Below are positions 76 to 56,526 of a stretch of DNA of 58,068 nt, piece after piece (the stretch's first letter is position 1; the number at the start of each line of letters is the position of its first letter). The translations under genes and the position numbers were made by a program. A model generated the notes under the pieces. That model was given only the letters and a program-made list of their open reading frames with translations. It did no database searches and had not been told where the DNA came from. Source of the stretch: Actinomycetes bacterium (lineage in GTDB: Bacteria > Actinomycetota > Thermoleophilia > RBG-16-64-13); NCBI GenBank assembly GCA_024637035.1, contig JAGXFW010000021.1, positions 1 through 58,068 of the forward strand, given 5' to 3'.

Positions 76-2100
76 CTAGGGGAGGATCCCCTTCACCACC
101 GCCTGGATGCCCGCGGGCAGCCCTACGAAGTCAAGGGTGCGAATTTCGACGGCGTTGGCCACCAGAGCGTCGCGGACGGGAGCGGGCAGCGTGGTGGGCT
201 GGGTGAGAAGGAGAATCCCTCCGTCCTTGACCAGGAGCGGAGCCACGACCAGAGCATCCGGGAACTTCTCGCCGGTAGCGAGGGCCACATGCTCGAAGGA
301 GAGCCCCAAGCTCTGGCCATATGCGGCGACCATGGCACTCGTGTCATAGCGGTCTGCTCCGACCTTGATGATGACGTCTTTGACTTTCGCGGGGGGCAGG
401 GTCCGGGTGCCCACAACGAGGCCTTGGGTGACACCGAGTGTTTCAATCTCGCCCGCCGTCGCCTGCGGTAGAGGTCCGGCCTGGGGAGTGAGGAGGATGG
501 CCCAACCTTTCGCTGCAGCCAGAGGTGCGACGGAGAGGGCGTCAGGAAAAGCATCTCCCGAAACCAGGACTATCCGCTCGACGTTCCCGAGTTTCTTCCT
601 GAGTTCTTCAGCAAGGAGCGCGGCGGTCTCGTACCGATCGGATCCGCGAATTGTGGTGATCGTGGCGGCGGGGAGGGTGGCGGAGAGGCCGGGTATGACC
701 GAGTCTGGTAGGCCGATGAAGAAGACCTTGCTCGGGTTGAGGCGCTTCAGTTCCTTTGCCACGGTGGGCGTGAGGCCGGATTCGGGAGTGATGACCACGG
801 GGCCTCCGTACGACGCAGCAAGCGGAGCGGCTGCCAGTGCGTCGGGGAAGTCGTCGCCCTTCACCAAGAACACCGAAGGGGCTCCCGCCGGATAGGCCTC
901 CTTCGAGACCATGATGGCGGTCTCGTAGCGGTCGATGCCGGTGAGCTCGCGGTAGACGGTGGGGAAACGCAGTCGAGTAGGGGCGGTACGATTGGTGGTG
1001 TCCCCAGTGCCGAGCACTCCGGAGAAGTTCACACCCCAGGTCCAGAGCGAGCCGTCCGTCTTCACGGCGATGGTTCGGGAGGAGCCGGCTGTGACGCTTT
1101 GCCAGTCCATGCTTGCGTCCACCCTGGTGCGCCAGAGTGGATCGATCACCTCTCCGGTGCCGAGCTGCCCGAGCCGGTTCGCGCCCCAGATCCAAAGGGA
1201 GCCATTGGATTTGAGGGCGCAGCTGTGGTCTACACCGGCGGAGACGGCACGCCAGTCCTTGGCCGTGCCGACTCGGGTGGGGATGGATCTATCGCCCTCC
1301 CCGCCGGTGCCGAGCTTTCCGTAGGAGTTGTTGCCCCAGGCCCACAGGGAGCCGTCAGAGGCAAGCGCCATGATGTGCTGATCCCCGGCGTCCATCATCC
1401 ACCAACGCACACCCGTGTCAACGATCTTTGCGGGGGCGAAACGATTGTTCGTGTCGCCTGTTCCCAGCTGACCGAAGTAGTTGTAGCCCCAGGCCCAGAG
1501 GGTGCCGTCGGACTTGAGACCGACAGTGTGGGAGTCCGCCGCGGAGACGGCGACCCAGCCAGTGTCCGTACCGATGCGTGTTGGCGTCTTGCGATCCAGC
1601 GTGTCTCCGGTGCCCAGCTGGCCGTATCCGTTCCGACCCCAGGCCCAGAGGGTGCCGTCGGACTTGAGCGCTACGGTATGGGAGCTCCCCGCCGCCACGG
1701 CTCGCCAATCGGTATCCGTGCCGATGCGTGTCGGGCGGCTACGATCGGCGGAATCCCCGGTGCCCAGCTGGCCGAAGTAGTTGTAGCCCCAGGCCCAGAG
1801 GGAGCCGTCGGATTTGAGCGCCACGGAGCGGTAGGAGCCGGCGGCGACTGTCTTCCAGTCAGTCGCAGTGCCGATCCGCACTGGCGTAGCATGCCTCGTA
1901 GCGTCCCCAGTGCCGAGACTTCCGGCCCAATTGTCCCCCCAGGCCCAGAGGCCGCCGTCTGAATCGAGGGCCAGGGTGTGGTAGAGGCCCGCCGCGGTCC
2001 GAGAAACCGCGAAGTCGAGGGGCGAGAGGGCTGCAGCCGGTAGAGCCGCCAGAAGGACCAGAAGGACCGAGAGAAGCAGGATGGGCGAACGCTTGCGCAT
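76..2100 (-). CDS. Secreted RCC1 propeller / triple CWB2 wall-anchored protein (copy 1)
   Basis: A 674-residue exported surface protein. Residues 1-25 are a signal peptide (MRKR, then a leucine-rich core ending AALPAAALS). Residues about 35-385 hold seven RCC1 blades of 50 residues, each with the pattern SDGSLWAWGxNxxGQLGTGD. Seven blades make a closed RCC1 propeller. Residues about 390-674 hold three cell-wall-binding-repeat-2 units, each starting with a DRYET/DRYDT motif and containing FPDALxxAPL. Triple CWB2 units are known to anchor Clostridioides S-layer proteins non-covalently to a wall polymer; that this polymer exists here is an inference. The ATG has a GGAGG five bases upstream. It lies 29 bp after copy 2, so the two probably share one transcript. 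The ligand of the propeller is unknown. Confidence 0.9.
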   Translation of the reverse strand: MRKRSPILLLSVLLVLLAALPAAALSPLDFAVSRTAAGLYHTLALDSDGGLWAWGDNWAGSLGTGDATRHATPVRIGTATDWKTVAAGSYRSVALKSDGSLWAWGYNYFGQLGTGDSADRSRPTRIGTDTDWRAVAAGSSHTVALKSDGTLWAWGRNGYGQLGTGDTLDRKTPTRIGTDTGWVAVSAADSHTVGLKSDGTLWAWGYNYFGQLGTGDTNNRFAPAKIVDTGVRWWMMDAGDQHIMALASDGSLWAWGNNSYGKLGTGGEGDRSIPTRVGTAKDWRAVSAGVDHSCALKSNGSLWIWGANRLGQLGTGEVIDPLWRTRVDASMDWQSVTAGSSRTIAVKTDGSLWTWGVNFSGVLGTGDTTNRTAPTRLRFPTVYRELTGIDRYETAIMVSKEAYPAGAPSVFLVKGDDFPDALAAAPLAASYGGPVVITPESGLTPTVAKELKRLNPSKVFFIGLPDSVIPGLSATLPAATITTIRGSDRYETAALLAEELRKKLGNVERIVLVSGDAFPDALSVAPLAAAKGWAILLTPQAGPLPQATAGEIETLGVTQGLVVGTRTLPPAKVKDVIIKVGADRYDTSAMVAAYGQSLGLSFEHVALATGEKFPDALVVAPLLVKDGGILLLTQPTTLPAPVRDALVANAVEIRTLDFVGLPAGIQAVVKGILP

Positions 2101-2129
2101 GACTTCCTCCAGATGCGGGTTCCACCAGA

Positions 2130-4155
2130 CTATTCGAGAATGCCCTTCACGGCCGGATGGATGCTGGGCCCAAGACCTACGATATCCACCTTGCGCACAT
2201 CTGGCGCGTTGCCGACCAAGACATCGCGGACCCCGGTGGAGAGCACCTCCGGATGGGTGAGAAGCAGGACTCCTCCGTCCCCGACCAGGTACGGGGCCGC
2301 CACCAGGGCGTCGGGATAATTCTCGCCGGTGAGCAAGGCCACGTGCGCGAAGGAGAGACCTCTACTCGTGCCGAAGTCGGCGATGCGCAGGTTCATGTCG
2401 TAGCGGTCGACACCCGTGCGCGAGACGACGCTCGTCACCTGTGCTGGGAACTTCACCCACGTTCCCACCCGGAGGCCTTGGGTGACGCCGAGCGCGCCGA
2501 TCCCCTCCGCCGTCACCTTGGGCAGGGGACCCGTCTGCGGAGTGAGAACGATGGCCCAGCCATTCTTGGCCGCCAACGGCGCCACCGAGAGCGCGTCGGG
2601 GAACTTGTCCCCCGGCGCGAGGACGACTCTCTCGATCGTGCCGAGCTTCTTTTTCAGTTCTTCGGCCAGAAGGACCGCCGTTTCGTAGCGGTCTTGTCCG
2701 CGGATGGTGATGACTTCAGCGACGGGCAAAGCGGCCTGGATGCCGGGCATGACCGAGTCTGCCAGACCGACGAAGAACACCTTGCTCGGGTTGAGACGCT
2801 TCAGTTCCTCGGCAAGGGCCGAGGTGAGGCCACTGGACGGAGTGATGATTATGGGCCCGCCGTAGGCCGCGGCCAGAGGTGCGGCTGCCAAGGCGTCGGG
2901 GAAGTCGTCTCCCTTCACCACGAACACCGCGGGCGCACCGAAGGGATAGGCCTTCATCGACAGCAGTACGGCGGTCTCGTAGCGGTCTGAGCCGGTGAAC
3001 TCCCGGTACCCCACAGGAAAGCGCACTCGGGTGGGAGTGGGATGATCAGTGGCGTCGCCGGTGCCGAGCCTACCGCTCCAGCCGGCGCCCCATGCCCAGC
3101 AGGAACCATCGGTCTTGAAGGCCACTGTGTGAAGGTATCCAGCGTCGATGCCGCGCCAGTCCCTGGCCGCGCCGATCCGGGTGGGAGTCTTCCGATTGGT
3201 GATATCGCCGGTGCCGAGTTGCCCTTGGCCGTTCAGGCCCCAAACCCAGAGGGACCCATCGGCCCTGAAGGCGACCGTGTGACCGTATCCGGCGTCGATG
3301 CTGAGCCAATCCTTGGCCCCGCCGATCCGGGTGGGGGTGAGTGGGTTGACGGTATCCCCAGTGCCGAGTTGTCCGGCCTCGTTTCTGCCCCATGTCCACA
3401 GGGAGCCGTCCGCTCTCACCGCGACAGTGTGTTCGTATCCAGCGTCGATACTGAGCCAATCGTTGCCCGCGCCGATCCGGGTGGGGGTCATCCGGTCGGT
3501 GGTATCGCCAGTGCCGAGTTGTCCAAACTGGTTCCCTCCCCAAGCCCAGAGCGAGCCGTCTGACTTGAGGGCCACAGTATGCGCATAGCCCGTGGCTATA
3601 CTGCGCCAGTCTGTATCCGTGCCGATCCGGGCGGGGGTCAGTGGCAGGGTCGTGTCCCCGGTACCGAGTTGCCCGAACTCATTTCTGCCCCAGGCCCAGA
3701 GGGAGCCATCGGACTTCAGAGCGATCGTGTGATTGAGGCCGGCGACGATGGCCTGCCAATCGGTATCCGTGCCGATGCGCGTAGGAACGGTGCGCTCGAC
3801 GCCGTCCCCGGTGCCCAGTTGCGCGAACCAGTTCGCCCCCCAGGCCCAGAGCGAGCCGTCGGTCTTCAGGGCCAGGGCGTGGTATCCGCCAGCGACGATG
3901 GTCCGCCAGTCGCCATCCGCGCCGATCCGGGTGGGCGTCGTGCGGCTCAACATGTCTCCGGTGCCGAGCGTCCCCTTCCAGTTGTCGCCCCAGGCCCAGA
4001 GGGAGCCGTCGGAGTCAACGACGAGGGTGCACGCGTTAGCGGCGGCGGCGGTCCGCGGGGCGGGGAAAGCCGACAATCGCATCGGCGGCGGCCGTGGGCA
4101 CAGCCATGAACCACGCGATGACACACAGGAGGAGGGGGGACAGACGCATGTGCAT
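2130..4155 (-). CDS. RCC1 propeller / triple CWB2 protein (copy 2), frameshifted behind the signal peptide
   Basis: The intended start is the ATG at 4155: GGAGG precedes it by five bases, as in copy 1, and it opens a signal peptide (MHMRLSPLLLCVIAWFMAVP, then TAAAD). That frame stops at 4036-4038 after 39 codons. The seven RCC1 blades and three CWB2 repeats continue in the +1 frame. The alignment with copy 1 runs through FPAPRTAA in the second frame, so the shift lies at the C-rich tract at about 4057-4069, where one surplus base explains it. The mature part is open from about 4070 to 2130 and looks functional. This is either a sequencing or assembly error, a recent loss of secretion, or a slippage switch. 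An in-frame ATG at 4124 would give a cytoplasmic product without a signal peptide. Confidence 0.8.
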
Positions 4156-4210
4156 GAGTTCCTCCCGAGTAGGGTTCAGCATACGCCGCGAAATCCAAGA
4201 CTCGGAACGC

Positions 4211-4240
4211 AACCTATCGTGCTGCTGCCATCGGGGTCAA
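4211..4240 (-). promoter_or_regulatory. Promoter of the copy 2 - copy 1 pair
   Basis: On the minus strand TTGACC (4235-4240) is followed after 18 bases by TAGGTT (4211-4216). The start codon lies about 50 bases downstream. Its spacer does not contain the palindrome found in the promoters of copies 3 and 4. Confidence 0.55.
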
Positions 4241-4274
4241 GCGGGAGTTGGCCCGTGCCGGCGGCGGCGCCTCT

Positions 4275-6311
4275 CTACTCCACGATCCCCTTCACCACCG
4301 GCTGGATAGCCGCGGGCAGGCCCACGAAGTCGAGGGTGCGCACCTCCGCCGCGTTGGCAGCCAGAACGTCCCGGATAGGGGCGGGCACGGCGGTCGGCTG
4401 AGTGAGGAGGAGGATGCCTCCATCTGCAACCAGGTACGGGGCCACTACCAGAGCGTCGGGGTAGTTCTCGCCGGTAGCCAGCGCCACGTGCGTGAAGGTG
4501 AGTCCCATGGTCTTTGCGTAGGCGGCGATGCGGGCGCTGGTGTCGTAGCGGTCGGTGCCCACTTTGAATACGACGTTCGTGACCGACGCGGGGGGCTGCA
4601 CCCAGGTACCCACCACCACCGCTTGGGTAGCACCGAGGACTCCGATCTCATCCGCCGTCACGGTGGGGAGCGGTCCGGCTTGTGGGGTGAGGAGGATCGC
4701 CCAACCTTTCTTGGCCGCCAGGGGCGCTACCGACAGGGCGTCGGGGAACTTGTCTCCCGGCGCGAGGACTATCTTGGTGATCGTCCCTATCTTCTTGCGG
4801 AGCTCTTCCGCGAGGAGGACGGCGGTGTGGTAGCGATCGGTGCCGACGATGTCGACGATCTGGACGCCGGGGAGAGCAGCCTGCACCTGGGGCCGCACAG
4901 GGGCGGGCAAGCCGATGAAGAAGACCTTCGCCGGCTTGAGACGCTTCAGCTCCGTTGCCACCGCTGGGGTGAGGCCGTCTGAGGGGGTGATCACGACCGG
5001 GCCCCCGTAGGCGCGGGCCAGCGGCGCGGCGGCCAAGGCATCGGGGAAGTTGTCACCCTTCACCAAGAATACGACCGGTGCGGTAGTCGGGTAGGCCTTC
5101 TTGGAGATCAGGATGGAGGTCTCGTAGCGGTCGGAGCCGGTGAAGGTCTGGTAGGTGGGGGGGACGCCCGCTCCTTGTAGGACGAACGTGGGGACGACGC
5201 GGCTCTGCTTGTTGCCGATGCCCAGCTCTCCGTAACTGTTCCGTCCCCAGGCGTAGAGGGAGCCGTCGGTCTTGAGAGCCAGGTTGTGGTACACGCCTGC
5301 GGCGATGCCAGACCAGACCTTCGCCGTGCCGACGCGGGTGGGTGCGATGCGGTCGTCGGTGTCTCCGGTGCCGAGTTGACCGTAATAGTTGTTGCCCCAA
5401 GCCCAGAGCGAGCCATCGGTTTTGACGGCAAGTGTGTGGTTGCTGGCGGCGACGATGCTCTGCCAGCCCTTCGCGGTGCCGACGCGGGTGGGCGACATGT
5501 GGTCGACGGAATCTCCGGTGCCGAGTTGCCCATCACCGTTGTCCCCCCATGCCCAGAGGGAACCGTCGGTCCTGAGCGCGAGGGTGTGGTTGAGACCAGC
5601 AGCTAGGCTCTGCCAGACTTTGGCCGTGCCGACGCGGGTGGGTGCGGAACGATTGGTGACGCCCCCCGTGCCGAGCTGCCCGTAGCCATTGTAGCCCCAT
5701 GCCCATAGGGAGCCATCGGTCTTCACGGCAACAGTGTGATTGCTGCCTGCGACGACGCTCTGCCAGACCTTCGCCGTGCCGACGCGGGTGGGTGCCGAGC
5801 GGGAGATCGTGTCTCCTGTGCCGAGCTGGCCGAGGCCGTTGCTGCCCCAAGCCCAGAGGGAGCCGTCGGTCTTGATGGCCATCGTGTGGAAGGGGCCGGT
5901 GGAGACGCTCTGCCAGTCGGTGCCCAGACCGATGCGGGTGGGAGATTTGAGGTCGGTGGTGTTCCCAGTGCCGAGCTGCCCTGCGTTGTTCCAGCCCCAC
6001 GCCCAGAGGGAGCCATCAGTCTTGATGGCTAGGGTGTGGTTCCCGGTGGCGGAGACGCTCTGCCAGTCGGTGCCCAGACCGATACGGGTGGGAGCGGTGT
6101 GGCTGGTGGTGTTCCCGGTGCCGAGCTGCCCAAAGCCGTTGAAACCCCAGGCCCACAAGGACCCATCGGCCTTCACGAGAAGGGTATGAAAAGTACCCGC
6201 GGCGATGCTCTGCGGCGCGACGAGCACGCCACTCGAGAGGACGGAGGCCGGAGGTGAGACTACGAGAGCAAGGAGCGCAACGGCTAGAACGTGGACCAAA
6301 CGACCTCGCAT
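4275..6311 (-). CDS. Secreted RCC1 propeller / triple CWB2 protein (copy 3)
   Basis: A 678-residue exported surface protein with the same plan as copy 1: signal peptide MRGRLVHVLAVALLALVVSP, seven 50-residue RCC1 blades, then three CWB2 repeats (DRYETS, DRYHTA, DRYDTS). I start at the ATG at 6311 because it directly opens the signal peptide and has a GGGGG stretch upstream; a TTG at 6323 would add four residues. Several neighbouring blades are nearly identical (a GTAKVWQS block occurs in four of them), which suggests recent blade duplication or gene conversion inside the gene. It has its own promoter (6370-6398) and a strong hairpin at the predicted 5' end of its mRNA. Confidence 0.9.
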   Translation of the reverse strand: MRGRLVHVLAVALLALVVSPPASVLSSGVLVAPQSIAAGTFHTLLVKADGSLWAWGFNGFGQLGTGNTTSHTAPTRIGLGTDWQSVSATGNHTLAIKTDGSLWAWGWNNAGQLGTGNTTDLKSPTRIGLGTDWQSVSTGPFHTMAIKTDGSLWAWGSNGLGQLGTGDTISRSAPTRVGTAKVWQSVVAGSNHTVAVKTDGSLWAWGYNGYGQLGTGGVTNRSAPTRVGTAKVWQSLAAGLNHTLALRTDGSLWAWGDNGDGQLGTGDSVDHMSPTRVGTAKGWQSIVAASNHTLAVKTDGSLWAWGNNYYGQLGTGDTDDRIAPTRVGTAKVWSGIAAGVYHNLALKTDGSLYAWGRNSYGELGIGNKQSRVVPTFVLQGAGVPPTYQTFTGSDRYETSILISKKAYPTTAPVVFLVKGDNFPDALAAAPLARAYGGPVVITPSDGLTPAVATELKRLKPAKVFFIGLPAPVRPQVQAALPGVQIVDIVGTDRYHTAVLLAEELRKKIGTITKIVLAPGDKFPDALSVAPLAAKKGWAILLTPQAGPLPTVTADEIGVLGATQAVVVGTWVQPPASVTNVVFKVGTDRYDTSARIAAYAKTMGLTFTHVALATGENYPDALVVAPYLVADGGILLLTQPTAVPAPIRDVLAANAAEVRTLDFVGLPAAIQPVVKGIVE

Positions 6312-6337
6312 CGAATCCCCCAATTGCTTGAGTGTGT

Positions 6338-6362
6338 GCTGTTCACCGGGTCCGGTGACAGC
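6338..6362 (-). other. Hairpin at the predicted 5' end of the copy 3 mRNA
   Basis: On the minus strand GCTGT-CACCG, a four-base loop (GACC), then CGGTG-A-ACAGC form a ten-pair stem with one bulged A. The predicted start site, seven bases after the -10 box, is near 6363, so the stem would begin within a base or two of the transcript end. Such 5' stems are known to stabilise mRNAs; that role here is inferred. Confidence 0.5.
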
Positions 6363-6369
6363 AGTCTAA

Positions 6370-6398
6370 AGCCTAGGGAGCTTTGAAAGCACTGTCAA
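6370..6398 (-). promoter_or_regulatory. Promoter of copy 3 with a palindrome in the spacer
   Basis: TTGACA (6393-6398), a 17-base spacer and TAGGCT (6370-6375) on the minus strand. The spacer contains the perfect palindrome GCTTT-C-AAAGC. The copy 4 promoter has the same layout with GCTTC-C-GAAGC: both arms changed and symmetry was kept, as expected for an operator. The site overlaps the first codons of the divergent SnoaL-like gene. Confidence 0.75.
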
Positions 6399-7024
6399 GT
6401 CGAAGGCCGGTTGTACTTCGACCATCACGGGTAGCCATACGCGAGATCGTCGAGAACTGGGTGATCTACAGCGATTCGGGCGACTGGGACCGCTTCGCCG
6501 CCCTGTGGCACGAGGACGGGTGGATGTCGGCTACGTGGTTCCAAGCCCCAGCCGCGGAGTTCGTGCGGGCTCGACGCGAGGGGTTCGAGCGAGGTGTCAG
6601 CATCATCCACTTCCTCGGTGCCTTCACCTGCGACGTGGCCGGCGATCGGGCGATCGCCCAGACCAAGATGACCATAAGCCAACGCGCTCCGGTAGATGGG
6701 GCCCTCGCCGACGTCATGTGCACCGGCCGCTTCTACGACTTCTTCGAGCGACGCACTGGTCACTGGGGCATGGTGCGGCGCCAACCCATCTACGAGAAGG
6801 ATCGAATCGATTTCGTGGACCCGGGAGCCGCCCCCGCACTCGACCAGGAGCTACTGGCCCGCTTCCCCGAAGGGTATCGCCACCTCGGCTACCTCCAGAC
6901 CCACGTGGAGTACCCCGTGAAGGAGTCCGGCATGCCCGGTCTGAAGGGCCCCGAGGTGGAACGACTGTACGCTGAGGGCACGGCGTGGCTCGGGGGCTCG
7001 GAGAAACCCGGCCGGCCGGGCTGA
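6383..7024 (+). CDS. SnoaL-like (NTF2-fold) domain protein
   Basis: A 213-residue protein. Residues about 15-150 look like the SnoaL-like polyketide-cyclase/nuclear-transport-factor-2 fold (AIREIVENWVIYSDSGDWDR followed by FAALWHEDGW, later an FYDFFERR region). Such domains bind small hydrophobic substrates; this subgroup has no assigned reaction. The C-terminal 50 residues (PEGYRHLGYLQTHVEYPVKE) occur in uncharacterised relatives. The start is uncertain: TTG at 6383 is the only standard in-frame start before the domain, and it has only a GGGAG very close by. It lies alone on the plus strand between propeller genes, with its start inside the copy 3 promoter, and it converges on copy 4 with a 14 bp gap. 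Confidence 0.75.
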   Translation: MKALSSRRPVVLRPSRVAIREIVENWVIYSDSGDWDRFAALWHEDGWMSATWFQAPAAEFVRARREGFERGVSIIHFLGAFTCDVAGDRAIAQTKMTISQRAPVDGALADVMCTGRFYDFFERRTGHWGMVRRQPIYEKDRIDFVDPGAAPALDQELLARFPEGYRHLGYLQTHVEYPVKESGMPGLKGPEVERLYAEGTAWLGGSEKPGRPG

Positions 7025-7038
7025 GCCCCGAGCGCCCT

Positions 7039-9102
7039 CTACTTCACGATGCTCTTCACCACCGGCTGGATCGTCTGAGGAAGCCCCACGAAGTCGACGA
7101 TGCGGATATCGGCTGCGTTGGCGACCAGGACGCCCCGGATCGGTGCGGGCACCGCCGTCGGCTGGGTGAGCAGCAGGATCCCCGAGTCGGGCACAAGGTA
7201 CGGGGCTACCACCAAGGCGTCGGGGTAGTTCTCCCCGGTAGCAAGAGCCACGTGCGTGAACGAGAGACCCATGCTCTTGGCGTACGCGGCGATCTGGGCG
7301 CTGGTGTCGTAGCGGTCGCTGCCCACCAGTTTGGTGTACGGCCCCACAGGTGCGGCGGGAAGCACGTGCGTGCCCACCACCAGGGCCTGAGTGGCACCGA
7401 GCACCCCCATCTCGTCCGCCGCCACCGTGGGCAGAGGGCCCACTTGTGGGGTGAGAAGGATGGCCCACCCGTTCTTCGCCGCCAGAGGCGCCACGGAGAG
7501 CGCATCGGGGAACTTGTCTCCCGAAGCGAGCACGACCATCGTCACCTTCCCGATCTTCTTGCGGAGTTCCTCAGCGAGGAGCACGGCGGTGTTGTAGCGG
7601 TCGGCGCCCACGACGGTGACGATCTGGGCGCCGGGGAGCGCGGCTTCAACCTGGGTTCGCACCGAGAGCGGCAATCCGATGAAGAAGACCTTCTTCGGCT
7701 TGAGTCGCTGCAACTCCGCCGTCACCGCCGCGGTGAGACCGCCCGAGGGGGTGATGACCACCGGGCCGCCGTAGGCTTTCGCCAGCGGGGCGGCCGCCAG
7801 GGCGTCGGGGAAATCATCCCCTTTTACCAGACATATGGCCGGCGCGCCCGTGGGATAGGCTCTCCGGGAGATCATGATAGCCGTCTCGTAGCGGTCGGAG
7901 CCGGTGAAGGCGCTGTAGAACGCGGGGACGCGCACTCCGTTGACGTTGAGCGCGAGGGTGGGATTGCTGCGATCGATGGCGTCCCAAAGGCCAAGCTGGC
8001 GGTAGGCGTTGCCGCCCCATACCCAGAGAGAGCCGTTCGCCTTCAGAGCCAGACTGTGTGAGAAGCCGGTGGCGATTCCCTGCCGGCCCTTCCCCAGGCC
8101 GACGCGGGTGGGCACGACGCGGGTGATGGTGTCTCCGACGCCGAGCTCCCCGTAGCCGTTGCTGCCCCAGGCCCAGAGGGAGCCGTCGGACTTCAGGCCC
8201 AGGGTGTGGGCGCCGCCCGATGAGATGCTCCGCCAATCGTTCCCCGAACCGATGCGGGTGGGCGCGGTGCGGTCGTTGGTGTCGCCGGTGCCGAGCTGCC
8301 ACACCGAATTCCCACCCCAGGCCCAGAGGGAGCCGTCGACCTTGAGAGCCACCGTGTGGAAGGCGCCGGCTGCGATGCTCTGCCAATCCTTCTCCCAGCC
8401 GATAGGAGTGGGCACGATCCGGTCATTGGTATCCCACGTGCCAAGGGCCCCGTTGGCGTTGTAGCCCCAGGCCCAGAGGGAGCCGTCGGACTTCAAGGCC
8501 AGACTGTGGCTGACCCCTGCGGCGATGCTCTGCCAGTCCTTCGCCGTGCCGATGCGGGTGGGAGCTGAGCGGTTGGCTGTGTCACCGGTGCCGAGGTAGC
8601 CGGAGTAGTTCCGACCCCAGGCCCAGAGTGAGCCATCACCACGAAGGGCAAGCGTGTGATAGGCGCCCGCCGAGATGCTCCGCCAACTCATCGAAGCGCC
8701 GATGCGGGTGGGAACTAGGCGGTTGGTGGTGTCCCCCGTGCCGAGCTCTCCGTGCCCATTGTAGCCCCAGACCCAGAGTGAGCCATCGGTCTTGAGCGCC
8801 ACGATGCCGAAGCTCTGGGCGGAGACACACTGCCAATCGTTCCCCAAACCGATGCGGGCGGGAGCCCAGCGGTCGATGGTGTCCCCCGTGCCGAGCTGAC
8901 CGGAGTCGTTTCGGCCCCATCCCCACAGGGAGCCGTCGGACTTCAACACCACAGTATGGTACACGCCCGCTGCGACGCTCTGCGGTGAGCCAACGCCGTC
9001 GCTCGACGAGGCGAGGGCGGGTGCCGTGACCAGCAGTGAGCAGACGACGAGCACGACCAGGGTTGTGGCGACCTGGAGGGGGTGGAGCAGGCGCTTTCGC
9101 AT
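7039..9102 (-). CDS. Secreted RCC1 propeller / triple CWB2 protein (copy 4)
   Basis: A 687-residue exported surface protein: signal peptide (MRKRLLHPLQVATTLVVLVV, then CSLLVTAPALAS), seven 50-residue RCC1 blades, then three CWB2 repeats (DRYETA, DRYNTA, DRYDTS). The ATG has a GGAG four bases upstream. Two blades deviate from the NxxGQLG consensus (GNSVWQLG and GNAYRQLG), so the surface loops differ from the other copies while the anchor is closely conserved. It is transcribed from its own promoter at 9182-9210, which has the same palindromic spacer as copy 3. Confidence 0.9.
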   Translation of the reverse strand: MRKRLLHPLQVATTLVVLVVCSLLVTAPALASSSDGVGSPQSVAAGVYHTVVLKSDGSLWGWGRNDSGQLGTGDTIDRWAPARIGLGNDWQCVSAQSFGIVALKTDGSLWVWGYNGHGELGTGDTTNRLVPTRIGASMSWRSISAGAYHTLALRGDGSLWAWGRNYSGYLGTGDTANRSAPTRIGTAKDWQSIAAGVSHSLALKSDGSLWAWGYNANGALGTWDTNDRIVPTPIGWEKDWQSIAAGAFHTVALKVDGSLWAWGGNSVWQLGTGDTNDRTAPTRIGSGNDWRSISSGGAHTLGLKSDGSLWAWGSNGYGELGVGDTITRVVPTRVGLGKGRQGIATGFSHSLALKANGSLWVWGGNAYRQLGLWDAIDRSNPTLALNVNGVRVPAFYSAFTGSDRYETAIMISRRAYPTGAPAICLVKGDDFPDALAAAPLAKAYGGPVVITPSGGLTAAVTAELQRLKPKKVFFIGLPLSVRTQVEAALPGAQIVTVVGADRYNTAVLLAEELRKKIGKVTMVVLASGDKFPDALSVAPLAAKNGWAILLTPQVGPLPTVAADEMGVLGATQALVVGTHVLPAAPVGPYTKLVGSDRYDTSAQIAAYAKSMGLSFTHVALATGENYPDALVVAPYLVPDSGILLLTQPTAVPAPIRGVLVANAADIRIVDFVGLPQTIQPVVKSIVK

Positions 9103-9181
9103 GAGTCTCCTTCGTCACGTCGCTCGCGTGTGCGCGCCTCGGCGACGGTGGCGGTCAGGATGTCCCGGGGGAGCCGTTCAA

Positions 9182-9210
9182 AGCCTAAGGAGCTTCGGAA
9201 GCAGTGTCAA
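9182..9210 (-). promoter_or_regulatory. Promoter of copy 4 with a palindrome in the spacer
   Basis: TTGACA (9205-9210), a 17-base spacer and TAGGCT (9182-9187). The spacer contains GCTTC-C-GAAGC, matching copy 3 except for the compensated pair. The gene-free stretch 9103-9405 holds this promoter and its leader of about 73 bases; I see nothing else between 9211 and 9405. Confidence 0.75.
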
Positions 9211-9405
9211 GTCAGCGTCGGATGGTTCAGAGCCCGCGAGATGGTGCCGTGGGAGCGAGGTGAGCCGCCGAGGGGAGTACTCCCCGGACCATCGGCAGGG
9301 TGTGGAGGGGGATGCCCGAGTCGGGAAGACCTGCACGTTCCAGGGAGAGGCGGGAGAGGCTCACCGGGCGAGCGCCACCGCCGGTCCCTACGCCCCTCCC
9401 CGCGA

Positions 9406-20354: not shown

Positions 20355-21815
20355 TCAGTGGCTGGGCCACTCCACGTCGGGGCCGTGGCACGCCCCTCCC
20401 TTGCCCTCGTCTTTCGCGCGGTAGAGGCCACTGTCGGCCGCGTGGATCAGGGCGAGCCCCACGTCCTGGAAGAACGACGCCGACACGGCTGCCGATCCTT
20501 CCTCAGCGGACCTAACCGCAAGCGTGGCCGACCCGATGCTCACTCTCGGGCGCTCCGAGAGCCCCGCGGAGCCACTGCCCGGATCCCACTCGGCCAACGC
20601 CTCGAGGATCCTGCGGGCAGCGGCGGCGGCGCCCTCGGCAGCGGCGCCGGGCAGGATCACCGCGAACTCGTCGCCACCGTAGCGGGCGACCACGTCGCTG
20701 TTCCGAGCGGAGCGCCTCAGCACCCGGCCTATCTCAGCGAGCAGCCTGTCGCCGGCCAGATGGCCGAGCCCATCGTTGATCTTCTTCAGGCCGTCCACGT
20801 CGAGCATCAGCACCGACAAGGGGAGGCCGGACCGGAAGGATGCGCGGAGCTCCCGCTGCAGCCACTGCTCGAAGAACCTGCGCACATAGACCCCGGTGAG
20901 CGGGTCGAGCGTCGCCATCTCGTGGAGTTGGGCGTTCTCGATAGCCACGGCGGCCTGGTTGGCGAACACCTGGAGCAAGCCGGTGTCTTCCTCCGACAGA
21001 GGCGCCTTGTCGAGGAACACGACACCGCTGGTCTGCTCGCGCACCCGAAGTGGGACGACGGTGGCCGAATCGCCCACAAGACTCCGCCCGGAGTTCATCG
21101 CCTCAGAGATGAGTCGGGTCCTCGGAGAATCAAGCGCCGACTTCAGAGAGCCACGGTCGGAGTAGCGACCGGTGCCGACCTGGATCACCAGTTCGGTGCC
21201 GTCGTCGGACGTAGCCAGGAAGCCATCGACCTCGGGGAGCCCCGAACTGGCCGCGGTGCCGGGTGTCACGGCCACGAACGAATTCACTGCGCCCACAAGG
21301 CCGGAGACCTGCAGGAGGATACCTTGCAGCAGGTCTGACATAGGCTGGATCGCATGGAGACGCGGAGTGGCCTCGAGGATATAGCGCAGACCTTGCCGAC
21401 TCTTCGATAGGAGCTGGAGCGAGTAGGCAGCTTTCAGCCCCACGTCGACCCAGAGCAGGAGACGATCAGGGCCGTCGTTCTTGTCGTGGTAGCCCTGGAT
21501 ATCGAGGCGGCGCATCATCTCTCGCGGAGGGTATTCGCTGGCGTGGCCGGTCTGCATGATCACCTGCACCACGGTGTTGAACGAGCGCAGCCTGCCCACC
21601 AACTCCTCTCCCGACATGCCCGGCATGCGCGAGTCGACGAGAACGAGGTCGACGGAACGGCTGCCCAAGATCTCGAGGGCTTCAGCGCCGGATGACACAC
21701 CCGGCACGTCATGGCCCTCCCGCACGAGCAGGCGACAGACGACGTCGAGGTAGGAGGGATCGTCATCGACCACAAGCACGACGCGCCCGCCAGTTCCCGC
21801 GTTTTCCGAGCCCAT
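20355..21815 (-). CDS. Response regulator diguanylate cyclase (REC-GAF-GGDEF)
   Basis: 486 residues. A receiver domain (about 10-130) has the acidic pair at D17-D18 and phosphoacceptor D61 (LVLVDSRMPG). A GAF-like domain follows (about 160-310), then a GGDEF domain (about 320-475) with an intact YGGDEF active site and the product-inhibition site RNSD five residues before it. It should make c-di-GMP when phosphorylated. The receiver end has a YHDKND motif in place of the common KP. No histidine kinase is adjacent. The ATG at 21815 is chosen because GGGAGG lies seven bases upstream. It is divergent from the L,D-transpeptidase gene. Confidence 0.9.
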   Translation of the reverse strand: MGSENAGTGGRVVLVVDDDPSYLDVVCRLLVREGHDVPGVSSGAEALEILGSRSVDLVLVDSRMPGMSGEELVGRLRSFNTVVQVIMQTGHASEYPPREMMRRLDIQGYHDKNDGPDRLLLWVDVGLKAAYSLQLLSKSRQGLRYILEATPRLHAIQPMSDLLQGILLQVSGLVGAVNSFVAVTPGTAASSGLPEVDGFLATSDDGTELVIQVGTGRYSDRGSLKSALDSPRTRLISEAMNSGRSLVGDSATVVPLRVREQTSGVVFLDKAPLSEEDTGLLQVFANQAAVAIENAQLHEMATLDPLTGVYVRRFFEQWLQRELRASFRSGLPLSVLMLDVDGLKKINDGLGHLAGDRLLAEIGRVLRRSARNSDVVARYGGDEFAVILPGAAAEGAAAAARRILEALAEWDPGSGSAGLSERPRVSIGSATLAVRSAEEGSAAVSASFFQDVGLALIHAADSGLYRAKDEGKGGACHGPDVEWPSH

Positions 21816-21937
21816 CTGGATGCCTCCCATGGTCAGATCCACTCAAGCTGCGGGGTTCCCCGGGGAGTGCCACGCAGGCCCCGAGTGAAGCCTCATGGTA
21901 TCATCCAGATACTGCGCAGCATGTAGTCATCTCCCCG

Positions 21938-43897: not shown

Positions 43898-45429
43898 TCC
43901 TCCGAGCGGTACACCCTGATCTGGCTCCGACCGTTCTCTTTGGCCACATAGAGTGCCTGGTCGGCGCGGTCGAACAGCTCCTTGGGCACCTGGCATTCGG
44001 CCTCCAGGGTGGCGACCCCCACACTCACCGTACGGCCGGCCACGACTCCATCGGGCACGTCGATCGTGATCTCGCGCACCGCATCGAAGATCTTCCGCGC
44101 CACCACCTCGGCTCCGCCGAGCGCGGTGCCCGGCAGAACGAGCGCAAACTCGTCGCCACCATAGCGAGCAGGAATATCGGATTCGCGCACCGCCGCTCGG
44201 ATCGCCTCGCCTACCCGACGCAGGAACATGTCGCCAAGTAGGTGGCCATAGGTGTCGTTGAGTTCCTTGAAGTAGTCGAGATCGATCATCACCATCGACA
44301 TGCGAGCCTTCGTGTTGCGCGCGCGGAGGAACTCCTGCTCAAGTACCTGCTGGAAGAACCTATGGTTGTAGAGGCCGGTGAGCTGATCGGTTATCGCGCG
44401 CTTCTCGATCTCCTCGTGCAACAAGACGTTCTGCAGCGATAGCCCCGCCATCCCTGCGACGCTCAGGAAACGCTCGAGCTCCAGCGGACCGTAGGCGATG
44501 TCCTCAGACGTCACGATCAATAGGCCGAGCAGATCGTCCTTCCGAAAGAGCACGGCGCCCAGGCCTGGGTTGTCGCCGAACATCTCTCTGAAGACATCCG
44601 GCCGCACGAGAGGAGTGAAGTTCCCGTCGGTGGACCGAAGATGCAGGTCGATCCAATCGGGATCCGTCGGCAGCGTCTCGGCGTATATCTCCAGGTTCTG
44701 ACCTTGTGAGCCATACAAGCCTAGGGTCCGCGGGTCGTCGTCGGCCCTGATGTAGAGGGCGCAGCTCTCCGCGCCCATGATGCCCAGAGTGCCGTCCACG
44801 ACCATCCCCGCGACGCTTCGCAGGGGCTCGTACACGGTGAGCGCCTTGAAGAACTCGTGGGTGAAGAACGTCTCGGCGAGTCGACGCTCCACGTCGTGGT
44901 ATGCACGGCGCAGTTCGTCCAGGCGTAGAGCCAGACGCTGCTCCCGCTTCTGCGCCTCACTGAAGAACGAGAACAGCTCGAACAGCGCGTCTGTAGCCGA
45001 GTCGGTAGCGATGCGCTGGCTCAGGAAGTAGCCGAGGAGCTGGCAGCCGGCGCTCCCTACCACGAGAACGCCTGACGAAGGAATCGGTGCGTCGAGAACG
45101 TCCAGCAGATCGAAGAACACCGAGACCTCGTCGATGGGCTCCAGCACGTCCGGCAGTTCGCCGGTCACCCTGACATCAGTCAGATCGGGACTCGACGTTT
45201 CGGCGCCGGCGTCATCCTCCCCGGCATCGCCTTCCATCAGGTCGGTCAGGACATCGACCTTGTCGGGGGCGCCACCAACAACGAGATGGAGGCCACTCAC
45301 TCGGACGATCCCGATACCACTCAACTTCCCGGCGAACCACTGGGCCGGCCCATCGGGGCCCACCACTGAGCACCGGAGGCCCACGTCAGCCTGCGTCTTC
45401 AGATTCTCGATCTGGTCGGCGATATTCAT
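43894..45429 (-). CDS. Diguanylate cyclase, last gene of the chemotaxis operon
   Basis: 511 residues. The N-terminal 100 residues include an acidic linker and a region I do not recognise. A coiled segment (about 170-205) and a GAF-like domain (about 215-345) follow. The GGDEF domain (about 350-505) has an intact ARYGGDEF site and a product-inhibition site RESD upstream. It should make c-di-GMP. The ATG at 45429 overlaps the cheD stop by 4 nt, so it is coupled to the che genes and may link chemosensory input to c-di-GMP. Confidence 0.9.
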   Translation of the reverse strand: MNIADQIENLKTQADVGLRCSVVGPDGPAQWFAGKLSGIGIVRVSGLHLVVGGAPDKVDVLTDLMEGDAGEDDAGAETSSPDLTDVRVTGELPDVLEPIDEVSVFFDLLDVLDAPIPSSGVLVVGSAGCQLLGYFLSQRIATDSATDALFELFSFFSEAQKREQRLALRLDELRRAYHDVERRLAETFFTHEFFKALTVYEPLRSVAGMVVDGTLGIMGAESCALYIRADDDPRTLGLYGSQGQNLEIYAETLPTDPDWIDLHLRSTDGNFTPLVRPDVFREMFGDNPGLGAVLFRKDDLLGLLIVTSEDIAYGPLELERFLSVAGMAGLSLQNVLLHEEIEKRAITDQLTGLYNHRFFQQVLEQEFLRARNTKARMSMVMIDLDYFKELNDTYGHLLGDMFLRRVGEAIRAAVRESDIPARYGGDEFALVLPGTALGGAEVVARKIFDAVREITIDVPDGVVAGRTVSVGVATLEAECQVPKELFDRADQALYVAKENGRSQIRVYRSED

Positions 45430-45911
45430 AGCTCGACGACCCCTCCTTTGTAGGATGTCACCTTCACCAGACCGGTGGAGATGTCGTATTCCGCGGTGCG
45501 AGCCCACGATCCGCCCACGTCCTTCCCGGCGATGGGCACGTGCAACTCACGCAGCACCTTGAGTGCGAGTTCGATGTTGCGGTCACCCACGTTCTTGCCA
45601 GCGGCGACACGGCCGAACATGTTCGCGCCGCCCACCAGCTTTGCCCTGAGTCTCGGCTTCTGTTGCGAGGCGCTCTCGAGCTTCCTGATCAGAGCGGGGA
45701 TCGCCGCCACGACGAACTTGCCTGAGGGCAGGGGGTTGCCGCTGAGTGGCGCCGGCAGCAAGCAGTGTGCCATGCCCCCTACGCGGAGCCGTTGATCGAA
45801 CAGCACGATGCCCACGCACGAACCTAGCGCTTGAGCAACCAGGACATCCCCAGCGAACCCCATCTTCACTTGTGCTATGCCTACCTGGAGGATCATTGTC
45901 GCGACCCCCAC
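45426..45911 (-). CDS. cheD: Chemoreceptor glutamine deamidase CheD
   Basis: 161 residues. The catalytic Cys lies in ALGSCVGIVLFD and the catalytic His in GGMAHCLLP, both classic CheD features. CheD deamidates receptor glutamines and in many species is controlled by CheC. GTG at 45911 has GGAG six bases upstream; the ATG at 45896 is the alternative. It follows cheC by 37 bp. Confidence 0.93.
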   Translation of the reverse strand: MGVATMILQVGIAQVKMGFAGDVLVAQALGSCVGIVLFDQRLRVGGMAHCLLPAPLSGNPLPSGKFVVAAIPALIRKLESASQQKPRLRAKLVGGANMFGRVAAGKNVGDRNIELALKVLRELHVPIAGKDVGGSWARTAEYDISTGLVKVTSYKGGVVEL

Positions 45912-45948
45912 GCTTCTCTCCGAATGACCCGGGGCGAGAGCACAACAA

Positions 45949-46512
45949 CTAGCCGGCCATCTCGTCGATCAAGCGATAGAAGTCCGCGTCGGCAAGGAAG
46001 AACAGCCGGCCGAGGACGCTGGTGTGGTCGGTGACGAAGTCCACCTCGACCATCCACAGATACTCCACCTCATACTCCAGCTCACCCATCAAAGACGGCA
46101 CCAGCGATCCCGCCATGTCGCGCAGGTAGCGAGCGAGTTCCGGCTTTAGATCCGACATGAGGAACATGCCGATCGCCTCGACGAAGGAAGTCAACACGTT
46201 CCCGAGCGGCTTCTCAAGGCCGAGCTCGTCGTCCTCGGCCACTCCGAGCGCCGCGCGCAGCGCCCTACCGTCCTCCTCCGGCAACGCGAGCAGCAGCCCC
46301 GCCTGGAAGGCTCCCTCCACCAAGACAAGAGCCGCTTCGACCGGCTCGGTGGGTGGGCCGAAGACCGTGGCCGCCTCCTCCAACTCCATCTCCCGCAGCA
46401 TGGGGACTGTGATGCGGACCGCATGGCCCATCTGCTCGGCCAGAGCACCCGAACTCTGAGACGCACCGATACTCACTATCTCGCGGAGCAGGTCCGCGGC
46501 TTCAGGCCTCAG
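45949..46512 (-). CDS. cheC: CheC-like protein with altered active sites and a probable CTG start
   Basis: 187 residues if started at the CTG at 46512. CheC dephosphorylates CheY-P using two D/S-x3-E-x2-N motifs. Here the first reads DLLREIVS (Asn to Ser) and the second TSFVEAIG (Asn to Gly), so both Asn are lost. The fold is otherwise CheC-like (IGASQSSGALAEQMGHAVRI and a pseudo-repeat near residue 115). The only ordinary start, GTG at 46476, would remove the first half of helix 1. The CTG at 46512 has GGGAG six bases upstream, inside the end of cheA, and restores the helix. It may act only as a CheD partner. Confidence 0.8.
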   Translation of the reverse strand: MRPEAADLLREIVSIGASQSSGALAEQMGHAVRITVPMLREMELEEAATVFGPPTEPVEAALVLVEGAFQAGLLLALPEEDGRALRAALGVAEDDELGLEKPLGNVLTSFVEAIGMFLMSDLKPELARYLRDMAGSLVPSLMGELEYEVEYLWMVEVDFVTDHTSVLGRLFFLADADFYRLIDEMAG

Positions 46513-48535
46513 CTTTCACTCCCTTCTGCAGAAGAAGCATGCGCAGGTCCACGAACAGAGACAGCCGCCCGTCGCTGATCACACATGTTCCCACCAGTCC
46601 CGGAGCCCTGCCCAGTGACCGCGCGATGGGCTTGATGACGAGCTCTTGGTCACCTACAAGCGAATCCACGACCAGCGCTTCGGTGCGCGACGATAGTTTT
46701 ACGAGCAGCGCCAACCGGGCGCCATCGACATCGAGAACATCACCTCGCTCGAGGAGGCCCAGGAGGGAGCGGATAGCCACCGGCTGATCGTCCACGATGA
46801 TCATGGGCGTCCCTCTGACCCACGAGACCTCGCCCGGCTCGATCTTGATGATGCGGTACACCTGGTTCCTCGGCACACCCACTGTCATGTGCCCCGAGCG
46901 AAGCACGAGCGACCGTAGGAGCGAGAGAGTGGGCGGGAATTCGAGTATCACCTTCGTGCCGGCACCGAGCGTGGAGATCATGTTGATGTCGCCGCCCACC
47001 TCTACTACCTTCTTGCGTACTATGTCGAGCCCGACTCCCCGGCCCGAGACATCGGTGACCGTCTCGGCAGTGGAGAAGCCTGCCTGGAACAGCAGAGCGA
47101 ACACCTGGGCCCGGGTGAACTCGTCGCCGGAGTCCTTTGAGATGACGCCCTTCTTGCGTGCCGACGCGAGCACCTTGGCCGGATCGATGCCCCGCCCATC
47201 GTCCTCGATCTTGAGCGCGACGTTGCCGTGCTCCGCGGCGGCCGTCACGGTCAGACGGCCTCGTCTCGGCTTCCCGGCAGCTTCTCTCTCCTCGGGCGTC
47301 TCCAGGCCGTGGTCGAGGCAGTTCCTGATGATGTGCACCAGCGGTTCTTGCACGCGGTCGAGAAGGGCTCGATCGATCTCGGTCTCACCGCCGACGAATT
47401 CCGCGTCTACCTCCTTGCCCAACTGCACGGACAACTCCCTCACCAACCGCTGGAAGCGCTGGAAGACGGAGCCGATAGGCACCATGCGCGCAGACAGCAC
47501 CTCACGCTCGAGATCATGACTGGTGCGCTCGATCAGCTCGAGGATCTCTTGAAGTTCGGGATCGTCGCTGGCACCCACCACGGCTCGTAGCCTTCGCCGC
47601 AGCATCAGGATCTCGCCCACCATGTTGGTGATACGGTCGAGCTTCCTACGCTCCACCCGGATGCCCGTCTGCTGAAAACTCTGCACGGTGCCACCCACGG
47701 CACCGCTCGCTCTTTCTCGCGCGGGGGACGGAGCGTCCACAGACTGCGGGGCGTCGTCGGAGGGCGCGACCGCGGCGGGTGCCCCGTCGGAAGGAGTCGC
47801 TTCGCCCTCCGCACACTCGGCGGCAGGCATGAGCAGGGGCGGCCCGGCCTCGAGGGGGATAACCAGAGAGACCTCTCCCACCGACGCTGCCGTCTGCACG
47901 AGCAGCCCCTCCTCGACGACACCGCCCAGGATGAAAGCGACCGCGCCACCCGGCTCGAGAGCCTCCCACTCCTCTGGAGACGGCACGGCACGCACCGAGG
48001 GGCCAAGTTTCTCCAGGCGGCTCAGTACCATCTTGAAGCGGAGCCTCGGATACGCGACCTCGTCCTCCAGGGTCACCGCTACACCGGACTCGCCCTCTGT
48101 CAGGCCGACCCAACCGCCCTGAGAACCGATCCGCGGGGTCGACCGTGGCGCGCGCGGCGCACGAGGCTCGTCGGCGAACATGACCAGCGCACTTTGGTGC
48201 GAAGAGACGTCGTCAGCGTTGGCGGTCATGTCACGGAGCACCGATTCGACCTGGAACATGAACTCGAGGTCCGTGGGGTCGATGGGCTGCTTGTCGTGGC
48301 GCCACCGATCGAGGTGGTTCTCAGCCCGATGACAGAACTCGGCGATGGCGCTGAAGCCCATAGCTCCCGCCATCCCTTTGAGCGTATGGGCCACGCGGAA
48401 GATCTCATCCACCGGTGTGAGGTCGTCTGGCACGGCCTCTAGTCGGAAGAGGCAGTCGAGGAAGCCGTCAAGGAGCTCCTGCGACTCCTCGAGGAAGAGA
48501 GCCCTGTAACGAGCCTCGTCGGAGATGGAGTTCAC
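46502..48535 (-). CDS. cheA: Chemotaxis histidine kinase CheA
   Basis: 677 residues with the full domain order. An HPt domain (about 1-110) has phospho-accepting His50 in RVAHTLKGMAGAMGF. A P2-like region (about 160-240) and a Pro/Ala linker follow. The dimerisation helices lie at about 290-355, the ATPase domain at about 360-540 (N-box HIIRNCLDHGLE, DDGRGI, GRGVGLD), and the CheW-like P5 domain at about 545-675. It autophosphorylates and passes phosphate to CheY and CheB in receptor arrays. GTG start overlaps the cheB stop by 4 nt. Confidence 0.95.
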   Translation of the reverse strand: MNSISDEARYRALFLEESQELLDGFLDCLFRLEAVPDDLTPVDEIFRVAHTLKGMAGAMGFSAIAEFCHRAENHLDRWRHDKQPIDPTDLEFMFQVESVLRDMTANADDVSSHQSALVMFADEPRAPRAPRSTPRIGSQGGWVGLTEGESGVAVTLEDEVAYPRLRFKMVLSRLEKLGPSVRAVPSPEEWEALEPGGAVAFILGGVVEEGLLVQTAASVGEVSLVIPLEAGPPLLMPAAECAEGEATPSDGAPAAVAPSDDAPQSVDAPSPARERASGAVGGTVQSFQQTGIRVERRKLDRITNMVGEILMLRRRLRAVVGASDDPELQEILELIERTSHDLEREVLSARMVPIGSVFQRFQRLVRELSVQLGKEVDAEFVGGETEIDRALLDRVQEPLVHIIRNCLDHGLETPEEREAAGKPRRGRLTVTAAAEHGNVALKIEDDGRGIDPAKVLASARKKGVISKDSGDEFTRAQVFALLFQAGFSTAETVTDVSGRGVGLDIVRKKVVEVGGDINMISTLGAGTKVILEFPPTLSLLRSLVLRSGHMTVGVPRNQVYRIIKIEPGEVSWVRGTPMIIVDDQPVAIRSLLGLLERGDVLDVDGARLALLVKLSSRTEALVVDSLVGDQELVIKPIARSLGRAPGLVGTCVISDGRLSLFVDLRMLLLQKGVKAEA

Positions 48536-49581
48536 CTCCGCCGCCTCCGGGCTTCGGAGGTGATCAGTTCGACGAGCCGAGGAGCGATGCGATGGAGGGG
48601 CAGCACCTCAGAAGCGACGCCCGCGTCGACGCAGGCCTTCGGCATGCCGTACACCACCGAGGTCTCTCTATCCTGCACTATGGTCGTGGCTTTCTTCTCG
48701 GTGAGCTTGGTCATGCCCTCGCGCCCGTCGGCGCCCATGCCGGTGAGCACCACCCCGATGCCCCGCGGCCCGAACACCTCGGCCAAGGAGGAGAGGGTCA
48801 CGTCGGCGGAAGGCTTGAAGCGGCCGTAGCCCTTCTCGTCGCTGAGTTCGATGGCCCGGCTTGAGCCGTTCTTCCCGAACCTCAGCTGGCTGCCCGGGGG
48901 AGCCAGATACGCGTGACCTGCACGGATCACCTGACCATCCACAGCCTCGACCACCTCGAGCTCCGACACACGGTCCAACCGTTGGGCCAACGATCGCGAG
49001 AATCCCACAGGTAGATGCTGCACGATGACGAAGGCGGCATCGAGACCTCCCGGCAACCCTGCCAGCAACACGTCGAGAGCCATGGGACCGCCCGTCGACG
49101 CCGCCACCGCGACCACGGGCATGAGCGGACGCGTCCCTGGCTGCGGCCTGCCGGGAGGAGCCTGATGCTGCGTCACCGGAGCGACCACCGCGGCCGCCGC
49201 TCTTACCTTGTCGCGCAGGTCTTCTCCCAGCTCGTCGATGTTCACCGAGATGGTGCCGGAGGGTTTGAGCACAAAGTCGATCGCGCCGAGTTCGAGGGCC
49301 TCGTAGGCCACGTGCGGGTCGGTGACCCCGCTCAGCATTATCACCTGCGGCCTCGGCCGGCCCTGAAGCTCCATCAAGACTTCGAGGCCGTTCATGCGCG
49401 GCATCTCGACGTCGAGGGTGATCACGTCCGGATCGAGAGCGGCGATCTTCTTGAGCGCGTCCTCGCCGTCTCGCGCGGTGTCGATCACGTCGATGTCGTC
49501 GGCCTTGGAGAGGACGTCGGAGATCAGAGTCCTCATGAGGGCCGAGTCATCGACGACGATGACTCGGGCCGCGCTAGCCAC
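48532..49581 (-). CDS. cheB: Protein-glutamate methylesterase CheB
   Basis: 349 residues. A receiver domain with phosphoacceptor D57 (TLDVEMPRMNG) is joined to the methylesterase domain with catalytic Ser in AASTGGP, His in IVQHLPVGFS, and Asp in TGMGADGREG. It removes methyl groups from receptors. GTG at 49581 is chosen because GGAG lies ten bases upstream, inside the cheY end; the two genes overlap by 8 nt. Confidence 0.95.
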   Translation of the reverse strand: MASAARVIVVDDSALMRTLISDVLSKADDIDVIDTARDGEDALKKIAALDPDVITLDVEMPRMNGLEVLMELQGRPRPQVIMLSGVTDPHVAYEALELGAIDFVLKPSGTISVNIDELGEDLRDKVRAAAAVVAPVTQHQAPPGRPQPGTRPLMPVVAVAASTGGPMALDVLLAGLPGGLDAAFVIVQHLPVGFSRSLAQRLDRVSELEVVEAVDGQVIRAGHAYLAPPGSQLRFGKNGSSRAIELSDEKGYGRFKPSADVTLSSLAEVFGPRGIGVVLTGMGADGREGMTKLTEKKATTIVQDRETSVVYGMPKACVDAGVASEVLPLHRIAPRLVELITSEARRRRR

Positions 49582-49933
49582 GGCTAACACGCTCCAGGGT
49601 GTCCAGCACCTTCTGTGGTTGGAAGGGCTTGACGATGAAATCCTTGGCGCCCAGCGAGAGGGATCGCTCGATGAACTCCTCTTGGCCGAGGGCACTCACC
49701 ATCACCACGTTGGCCTCAGGATCGAACTCCATGATCCTCGCGAGGGCCTCGATGCCGTCGGCGACAGGCATGGTGATGTCCATCGTCACCATCTCCGGCC
49801 GCACTTCCTGGTACACGCGGACTGCCGCCTCTCCGTCGGCGGCCTCCCCCACTATGGAGTAGCCATTCTTCTCCAAGATGTCTCGGAGCATCCTACGGAT
49901 GAAGCCGGAGTCGTCGACGATCAATACGTTCAT
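49574..49933 (-). CDS. cheY: Chemotaxis response regulator CheY
   Basis: 119 residues, a single receiver domain: D7-D8 acidic pair, phosphoacceptor D52 (VTMDITMPVADG), Ser84-type switch residue in MVSALGQ and the Lys of IVKPFQP. Phosphorylated by CheA. It overlaps cheW by 4 nt and cheB by 8 nt. Confidence 0.95.
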   Translation of the reverse strand: MNVLIVDDSGFIRRMLRDILEKNGYSIVGEAADGEAAVRVYQEVRPEMVTMDITMPVADGIEALARIMEFDPEANVVMVSALGQEEFIERSLSLGAKDFIVKPFQPQKVLDTLERVSRG

Positions 49934-50424
49934 CCGACAGGCACCTCCTTGAGCTCCCTCAAGCGCGCCAGCTGCTCTGGAGGCAGCAGCTCATGGGCGT
50001 GAACCAGTAGAAGCACATGATCATCTCGCTTCACGATCCCCCGGACGGCGGCCCTGATCTCGCCGTCGACGACGAGGTCCTCGGGGGCTTCCATGATGTC
50101 GTCGGATGCGATCTCTTCCACCGAATAGCAGGAATCCACCAGTGCAGCCATGTTCTCATCGGCAACGTCGAGCAGCAGGACGAACTCTTCGCGACCGTCT
50201 TGGGTGACGCTGCCGTCAGCATCGCCCAGACCGAAACGCCTACGCAAGTTGACCACAGCATGGATCTCGCCGCGAAGGTTGAAGATGCCCTCGATCGAGG
50301 CGGGAGCGCCGGGCATGTCCACGACCTCGGGTCGACGCAGGATGCTCCTCACGTCGGTGATGGGCAGGCCATACCGTCCCCTGCCCAGGCGGAACAGCAG
50401 ATACTTCTCAGATTCACCTGGCAT
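49930..50424 (-). CDS. cheW: Chemotaxis adaptor CheW
   Basis: 164 residues. A CheW fold with [20 protein letters not shown] at the start and the conserved [16 protein letters not shown] segment that contacts receptor and CheA. It couples the receptor at 50414 to CheA. It overlaps the receptor gene by 11 nt. Confidence 0.94.
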
Positions 50425-56465: not shown

Positions 56466-56485
56466 CACGGTACACACTGTGTCAA
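56457..56485 (-). promoter_or_regulatory. Promoter of the DUF166 gene
   Basis: TTGACA (56480-56485), 17 bases, TATACT (56457-56462): the best match to a housekeeping promoter in the window. The leader is about 40 bases. Confidence 0.8.
56472..56482. promoter_or_regulatory. Second palindrome in the DUF166/regulator interval
   Basis: ACACA-C-TGTGT, perfect, lying over the spacer and -35 box of the DUF166 promoter. It shares the ACACTG core with the first palindrome; a further GTGTTTA half-site follows at about 56488. Confidence 0.55.
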
Positions 56486-56513
56486 CGGTGTTTAGTTTCC
56501 CCGAACTTTCCGC

Positions 56514-56519
56514 TACTAT
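56514..56519 (+). promoter_or_regulatory. -10 box placed for a leaderless regulator mRNA
   Basis: TACTAT is seven bases before the ATG at 56527 and there is no ribosome site, so the message is probably leaderless. The -35 region (TTTAGT) is poor. Confidence 0.45.
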
Positions 56520-56526
56520 AGTTCTA

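Follow-up and report, generated by a model that had tools for sequence, protein, structure and literature searches.

Families of surface proteins with the CWB2 domain (PF04122) are large and paralogous, and their members combine three C-terminal CWB2 domains with an N-terminal repeat domain. We know of no regulation for RCC1-CWB2-type surface-protein genes. LexA (SOS) boxes are inverted repeats that can be centred in the spacer between the -35 and -10 boxes of a promoter; LexA-type boxes are found ahead of many genes and fit a fixed consensus. In Actinobacteria such as Streptomyces, promoters usually consist of TANNNT/NTGACC boxes (PMC4895711).

The locus described here consists of four tandem minus-strand genes at positions 76-9102 of the window (the whole stretch of DNA that was analysed, 58,068 nucleotides), whose products are wall proteins that combine RCC1 repeats with three CWB2 domains (Pfam). 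It shares the C-terminal organisation and the large paralogous family of the CWB2 proteins, the N-terminal part here being made of RCC1 repeats. The promoters of copies 3 and 4 resemble those of the HrdB/SigA type (TTGAC-N16-19-TANNNT) in their -35 box TTGACA, 17-bp spacing and -10 box TAGGCT, but their spacers add an 11-bp palindrome, at about chance frequency for this promoter class. From the boxes we infer that both promoters would be used by a housekeeping sigma factor (sigma-70/HrdB-type). As with LexA boxes, the inverted repeat is centred between the two boxes; unlike them, GCTTYCRAAGC is found before two paralogues only, without a known or linked regulator.

The tandem genes and their surroundings

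Copies 3 (4275-6311, 678 aa) and 4 (7039-9102, 687 aa) each encode RCC1 repeats followed by three CWB2 domains, and RCC1 and CWB2 domains were also found by Pfam in copies 1 (76-2100) and 2 (2130-4124; start codon uncertain, possibly upstream of 4124). Between copies 3 and 4, the ORF list and Pfam place a plus-strand gene with a SnoaL_4 domain (6383-7024) that diverges from copy 3. The open frame of this gene starts within the copy 3 promoter, and the true start may be downstream. Only 29 bp separate copy 2 from copy 1, and a search for a promoter of copy 1's own found none; copy 1 is probably co-transcribed with copy 2.

Elsewhere in the window, a response regulator-DUF3369-GGDEF protein (20355-21842) adjoins glycosyltransferase and GtrA-like genes, and a group of chemotaxis genes (CheD, CheB, CheW, CheR; 45426-52632) is followed just beyond by a DUF4388 protein (52857-53417). 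The only small HTH protein detected by Pfam among the ORFs scanned is an HTH_20 protein at 56479-57339. An Rfam search of the window matched no riboswitch or other known RNA.

Promoters and palindromes of copies 3 and 4

By direct reading and pattern searches we located the copy 3 promoter at 6370-6398 on the minus strand (-35 box TTGACA 6393-6398, -10 box TAGGCT 6370-6375) and that of copy 4 at 9182-9210 on the same strand (TTGACA 9205-9210, TAGGCT 9182-9187). Their 17-bp spacers, GTGCTTTCAAAGCTCCC in copy 3 and CTGCTTCCGAAGCTCCT in copy 4, contain the 11-bp palindromes GCTTTCAAAGC (GCTTT-C-AAAGC, 6380-6390) and GCTTCCGAAGC (GCTTC-C-GAAGC, 9192-9202), so that the palindrome carried by the two copies is GCTTNCNAAGC. 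An inverted repeat overlapping the promoter, which is a trait of operators, is therefore present in both. The original prediction of TTGACA-N17-TAGGCT with this palindrome in both spacers proved exact. It had also stated that the two sites differ at one symmetric pair with both arms altered, and the sequence agrees: they are unlike only in the pair on either side of the central base, which is T:A in copy 3 and C:G in copy 4. The copy 2 promoter, said to lack the palindrome, indeed shows none; pattern searches place it at 4211-4240 on the minus strand as TTGACC-N18-TAGGTT, with a spacer unrelated to those of copies 3 and 4. From the promoter sequences, it is possible that the copies are regulated differently.

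The symmetry of these spacers was also followed beyond the 11-bp sites. The next pair outward that could match, at +/-7, reads G..C in copy 3 and C..C in copy 4, a one-sided change. Copy 3 carries a further inverted repeat, AAAGC-N7-GCTTT, which extends into the -10 box, and the A-to-G change responsible for the "compensation" of the 11-bp site also shortens this repeat in copy 4. Reading of the copy 3 leader revealed a palindrome stronger than the 11-bp site, TCACCGGACCCGGTGA (6343-6358, 16 bp, 7-bp arms TCACCGG and CCGGTGA around AC), just 3' of the presumed copy 3 start. This leader repeat is absent in copy 4.

Descent of copies 3 and 4

A tree of six full-length RCC1-CWB2 proteins, from this genome and one congener (G001), paired copy 3 with copy 4 (support 97/97), copy 1 with copy 2 (95/96), and a further gene of this genome, on contig C9, with the congener's gene on contig C77 (100/100). 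The C77 gene, the nearest full-length relative, was considered as an orthologue of copy 3 or 4 and rejected, since it is orthologous to the C9 gene. Copies 3 and 4 arose by duplication; their proteins are 66% identical, and 43% of their shared fourfold sites have changed (saturation is at 61%). The protein distance between them exceeds that between C9 and C77 across two species, so the duplication probably predates the species split, and the congener has then probably lost its copies, or its assembly lacks them.

Alignment of the upstream regions delimited a conserved promoter core of 42 bp at 6360-6401 (copy 3) and 9172-9213 (copy 4), both on the minus strand. Within it 34/42 positions are identical (P ~0.001 against the fourfold sites, whose rate is a rough neutral yardstick only), and the flanks are unalignable. 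This contrast between core and flanks indicates that both promoters derive from a single ancestral one and have been kept under constraint. Taken alone, the 17-bp spacer (13/17 identical) is not clearly conserved (P 0.08). When it was split, the palindrome had kept 9/11 positions and the rest 4/6, with neither value distinct from the rate at fourfold sites (P 0.08 and 0.48, respectively).

Promoter boxes shared across the family

The 3.57-Mb genome contains TTGAC-N17-19-TAGGNT at ten places, four of which are promoters of RCC1-CWB2 genes: copies 2, 3 and 4 and the C9 gene (G000:C9:6471-6500). In the congener the same boxes precede the C77 gene (RCC1-CWB2) and a gene on contig C71 that joins another repeat domain to CWB2. 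All family promoters found have TTGAC[AC] and TAGG[CT]T in common. Searches of both genomes for this promoter at other CWB2 genes found none beyond copies 2-4, C9, C77 and C71. With four of the ten genomic occurrences at RCC1-CWB2 genes, the boxes are inherited across the family and the palindrome is confined to the branch of copies 3 and 4; the evidence for a promoter common to the family is stronger than that for the palindrome. The CWB2 family itself is expanded in this genome (78 domain hits in ~26 genes on 10 contigs, with varied N-terminal domains such as RCC1, NHL and others), and it is similar in the congener. The same boxes also stand before other genes of the genome, e.g. those for a GntR-type regulator and a CxxCH-containing exported protein.

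Frequency of the palindrome

We found GCTTN3AAGC twice in the window against 0.33 expected, a count reached by 6/100 shuffles, and the full promoter-plus-palindrome pattern never appeared in window shuffles. Copies 3 and 4 are paralogous, so these are not two independent matches. Genome-wide, the palindrome is not enriched (36 places, against 104 for the reversed pattern, a crude control since it differs in dinucleotides), and within TTGACA promoters only the sites of copies 3 and 4 were found. A genome-wide palindrome regulon was rejected: among the 35/36 sites fetched there was no good promoter-like spacer besides those of copies 3 and 4. Neither 60 relatives nor 398 other genomes of the class, sets that overlap, contained the promoter with the palindrome. 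A GTDB genome scan for orthologues of copies 3 and 4 gave distant RCC1 proteins only, which lack such a spacer palindrome. The congener has no close counterpart of the two copies, and its related promoters carry other spacers.

As a null set we used 135 promoter-like TTGAC-N17-19-TAGGNT sites in 41 genomes, among the matches listed. Spacer inverted repeats with arms of at least 5 bp were found at 6/133 of the other sites (4.5%), compared with 3-4% in random spacers; judging from reversed controls, many of the sites are chance matches, and the set is therefore a mixed background. The expectation that the palindrome would be commoner in promoter spacers than chance largely did not hold, with two sites genome-wide and arms of at least 5 bp at the background rate among the 135 sites of the matches listed. 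Apparently orthologous promoters of the two congeners keep their spacers at 17/18 (C9/C77), 15/17, 15/18 and 12/18 positions, without a long palindrome. Set against 13/17 in copies 3 and 4, this means that spacer conservation alone needs no operator.

Spacer operators do probably occur in the class, with a recognisable longer site. One of the six other spacer repeats, in the promoter TTGACACGAACGGACGTTCGCGTAGGAT of genome G020, is CGAAC-N4-GTTCG, which has the form of a LexA box and stands directly before a DnaQ/UvrC-like repair gene (recognised by eye in the sequence). In this promoter spacer (L230, 1501-1528) the LexA-like sequence reads CGAACGGACGTTCG.

The compensated pair

Two changes in the arms would compensate each other by chance in 4-6% of cases at moderate transition bias and in 9% at extreme bias. 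In simulations with a random ancestral spacer and four substitutions, a palindrome appeared at the same place in both copies in 0.12% of runs, and in 0.07% when a compensated change was also required; this chance of ~0.1% applies to one pre-chosen promoter pair, before correction for looking elsewhere. Because paralogues share a spacer by descent, the single compensated pair alone counts as evidence. The hint is genuine, yet it comes from a single event, noticed after the whole window had been read, and it is weakened by the one-sided +/-7 pair and by the shortening of AAAGC-N7-GCTTT through the same A-to-G change.

Explanations for the shared palindrome

On balance we lean, with moderate confidence, towards an inherited pair of ordinary promoters in which the palindrome is incidental. 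A wall-protein gene of the RCC1-CWB2 type, preceded by a TTGAC-N-TAGGNT promoter, was duplicated; both boxes and a large part of the spacer were conserved, in this view because the promoter must work. The common ancestor of the two copies would already have carried the palindrome in its spacer and passed it on to both; the symmetric difference, made by two of the four spacer substitutions, would be a coincidence and no proof that a protein reads the site. Transcription would start ~7 bp past TAGGCT, giving predicted leaders of ~50 nt for copy 3 and ~70 nt for copy 4. Against this stand the joint chance of ~0.1% and the slightly better retention of the palindrome compared with the rest of the spacer. 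As it stands, the locus shows how a duplicated promoter can mimic two independent operator sites. The similarity of the core could also have arisen by gene conversion, had it moved this short stretch between copies 3 and 4 after the duplication, and would then be silent on constraint. The core edges are indeed sharp against the unalignable flanks, but 8/42 core sites differ, both spacer ends included, so any conversion must be old, and the C9/C77 pair shows the same conserved-core pattern in two species, where conversion is not expected. We consider this very improbable.

The main competitor of the inherited promoter is an operator, which we regard as possible though rather doubtful. A homodimeric repressor would bind GCTTYCRAAGC between the -35 and -10 boxes of copies 3 and 4 and block RNA polymerase; the inner pair would be tolerant as long as the half-sites stay equal, and copies 1 and 2 would escape control. 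The palindrome is centred in a spacer of optimal 17-bp length, its difference is symmetric and compensated, the joint chance for a pre-chosen pair is ~0.1%, and the LexA-like box of G020 suggests that spacer operators of like geometry exist in the class. However, there are two sites only, both paralogous, with short half-sites of 5 bp (4 invariant), and the symmetry does not extend past +/-6, the +/-7 pair of copy 4 being unmatched. Nor is there a linked regulator: none had been evident in the window, and Pfam on the ORFs scanned bears this out, giving one small HTH protein, 47 kb away. Operators often, though not necessarily, have their regulator encoded close by, and an unlinked one may exist. 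In the open literature, the palindrome letters gave no matching operator among the hits inspected, which were primer sequences. The more specific proposal, a dedicated unlinked repressor for the branch of copies 3 and 4, whose operator drifted by a compensating pair and under which neighbouring paralogues that make similar proteins are expressed in different conditions, seems unlikely to us. A functional symmetry would mean that members of a tandem wall-protein family are controlled differently, which would be a cheap means of varying the cell surface. The inverted repeats (the 11-bp site, AAAGC-N7-GCTTT at the -10 box and the 16-bp repeat of the copy 3 leader) might instead act as DNA or RNA structure and not as a protein site, and copy 3 does have several that overlap or adjoin. 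We give this hardly any credence: the spacer, being upstream of the start, is untranscribed from its own promoter, copy 4 retains only one of the three repeats, and stable cruciforms need arms longer than 5 bp.

Repeats in the promoter of a regulator gene

The promoter of a GntR/FadR-type regulator was found with the spacers TCTGAGGTCTGACGA (G000:C3:77117-77146) and TCTGACGTCTGAGGA (G001:C97:118668-118697). In the two spacers G and C are exchanged reciprocally at corresponding positions of two TCTGA repeats, which are perhaps an autoregulatory site.
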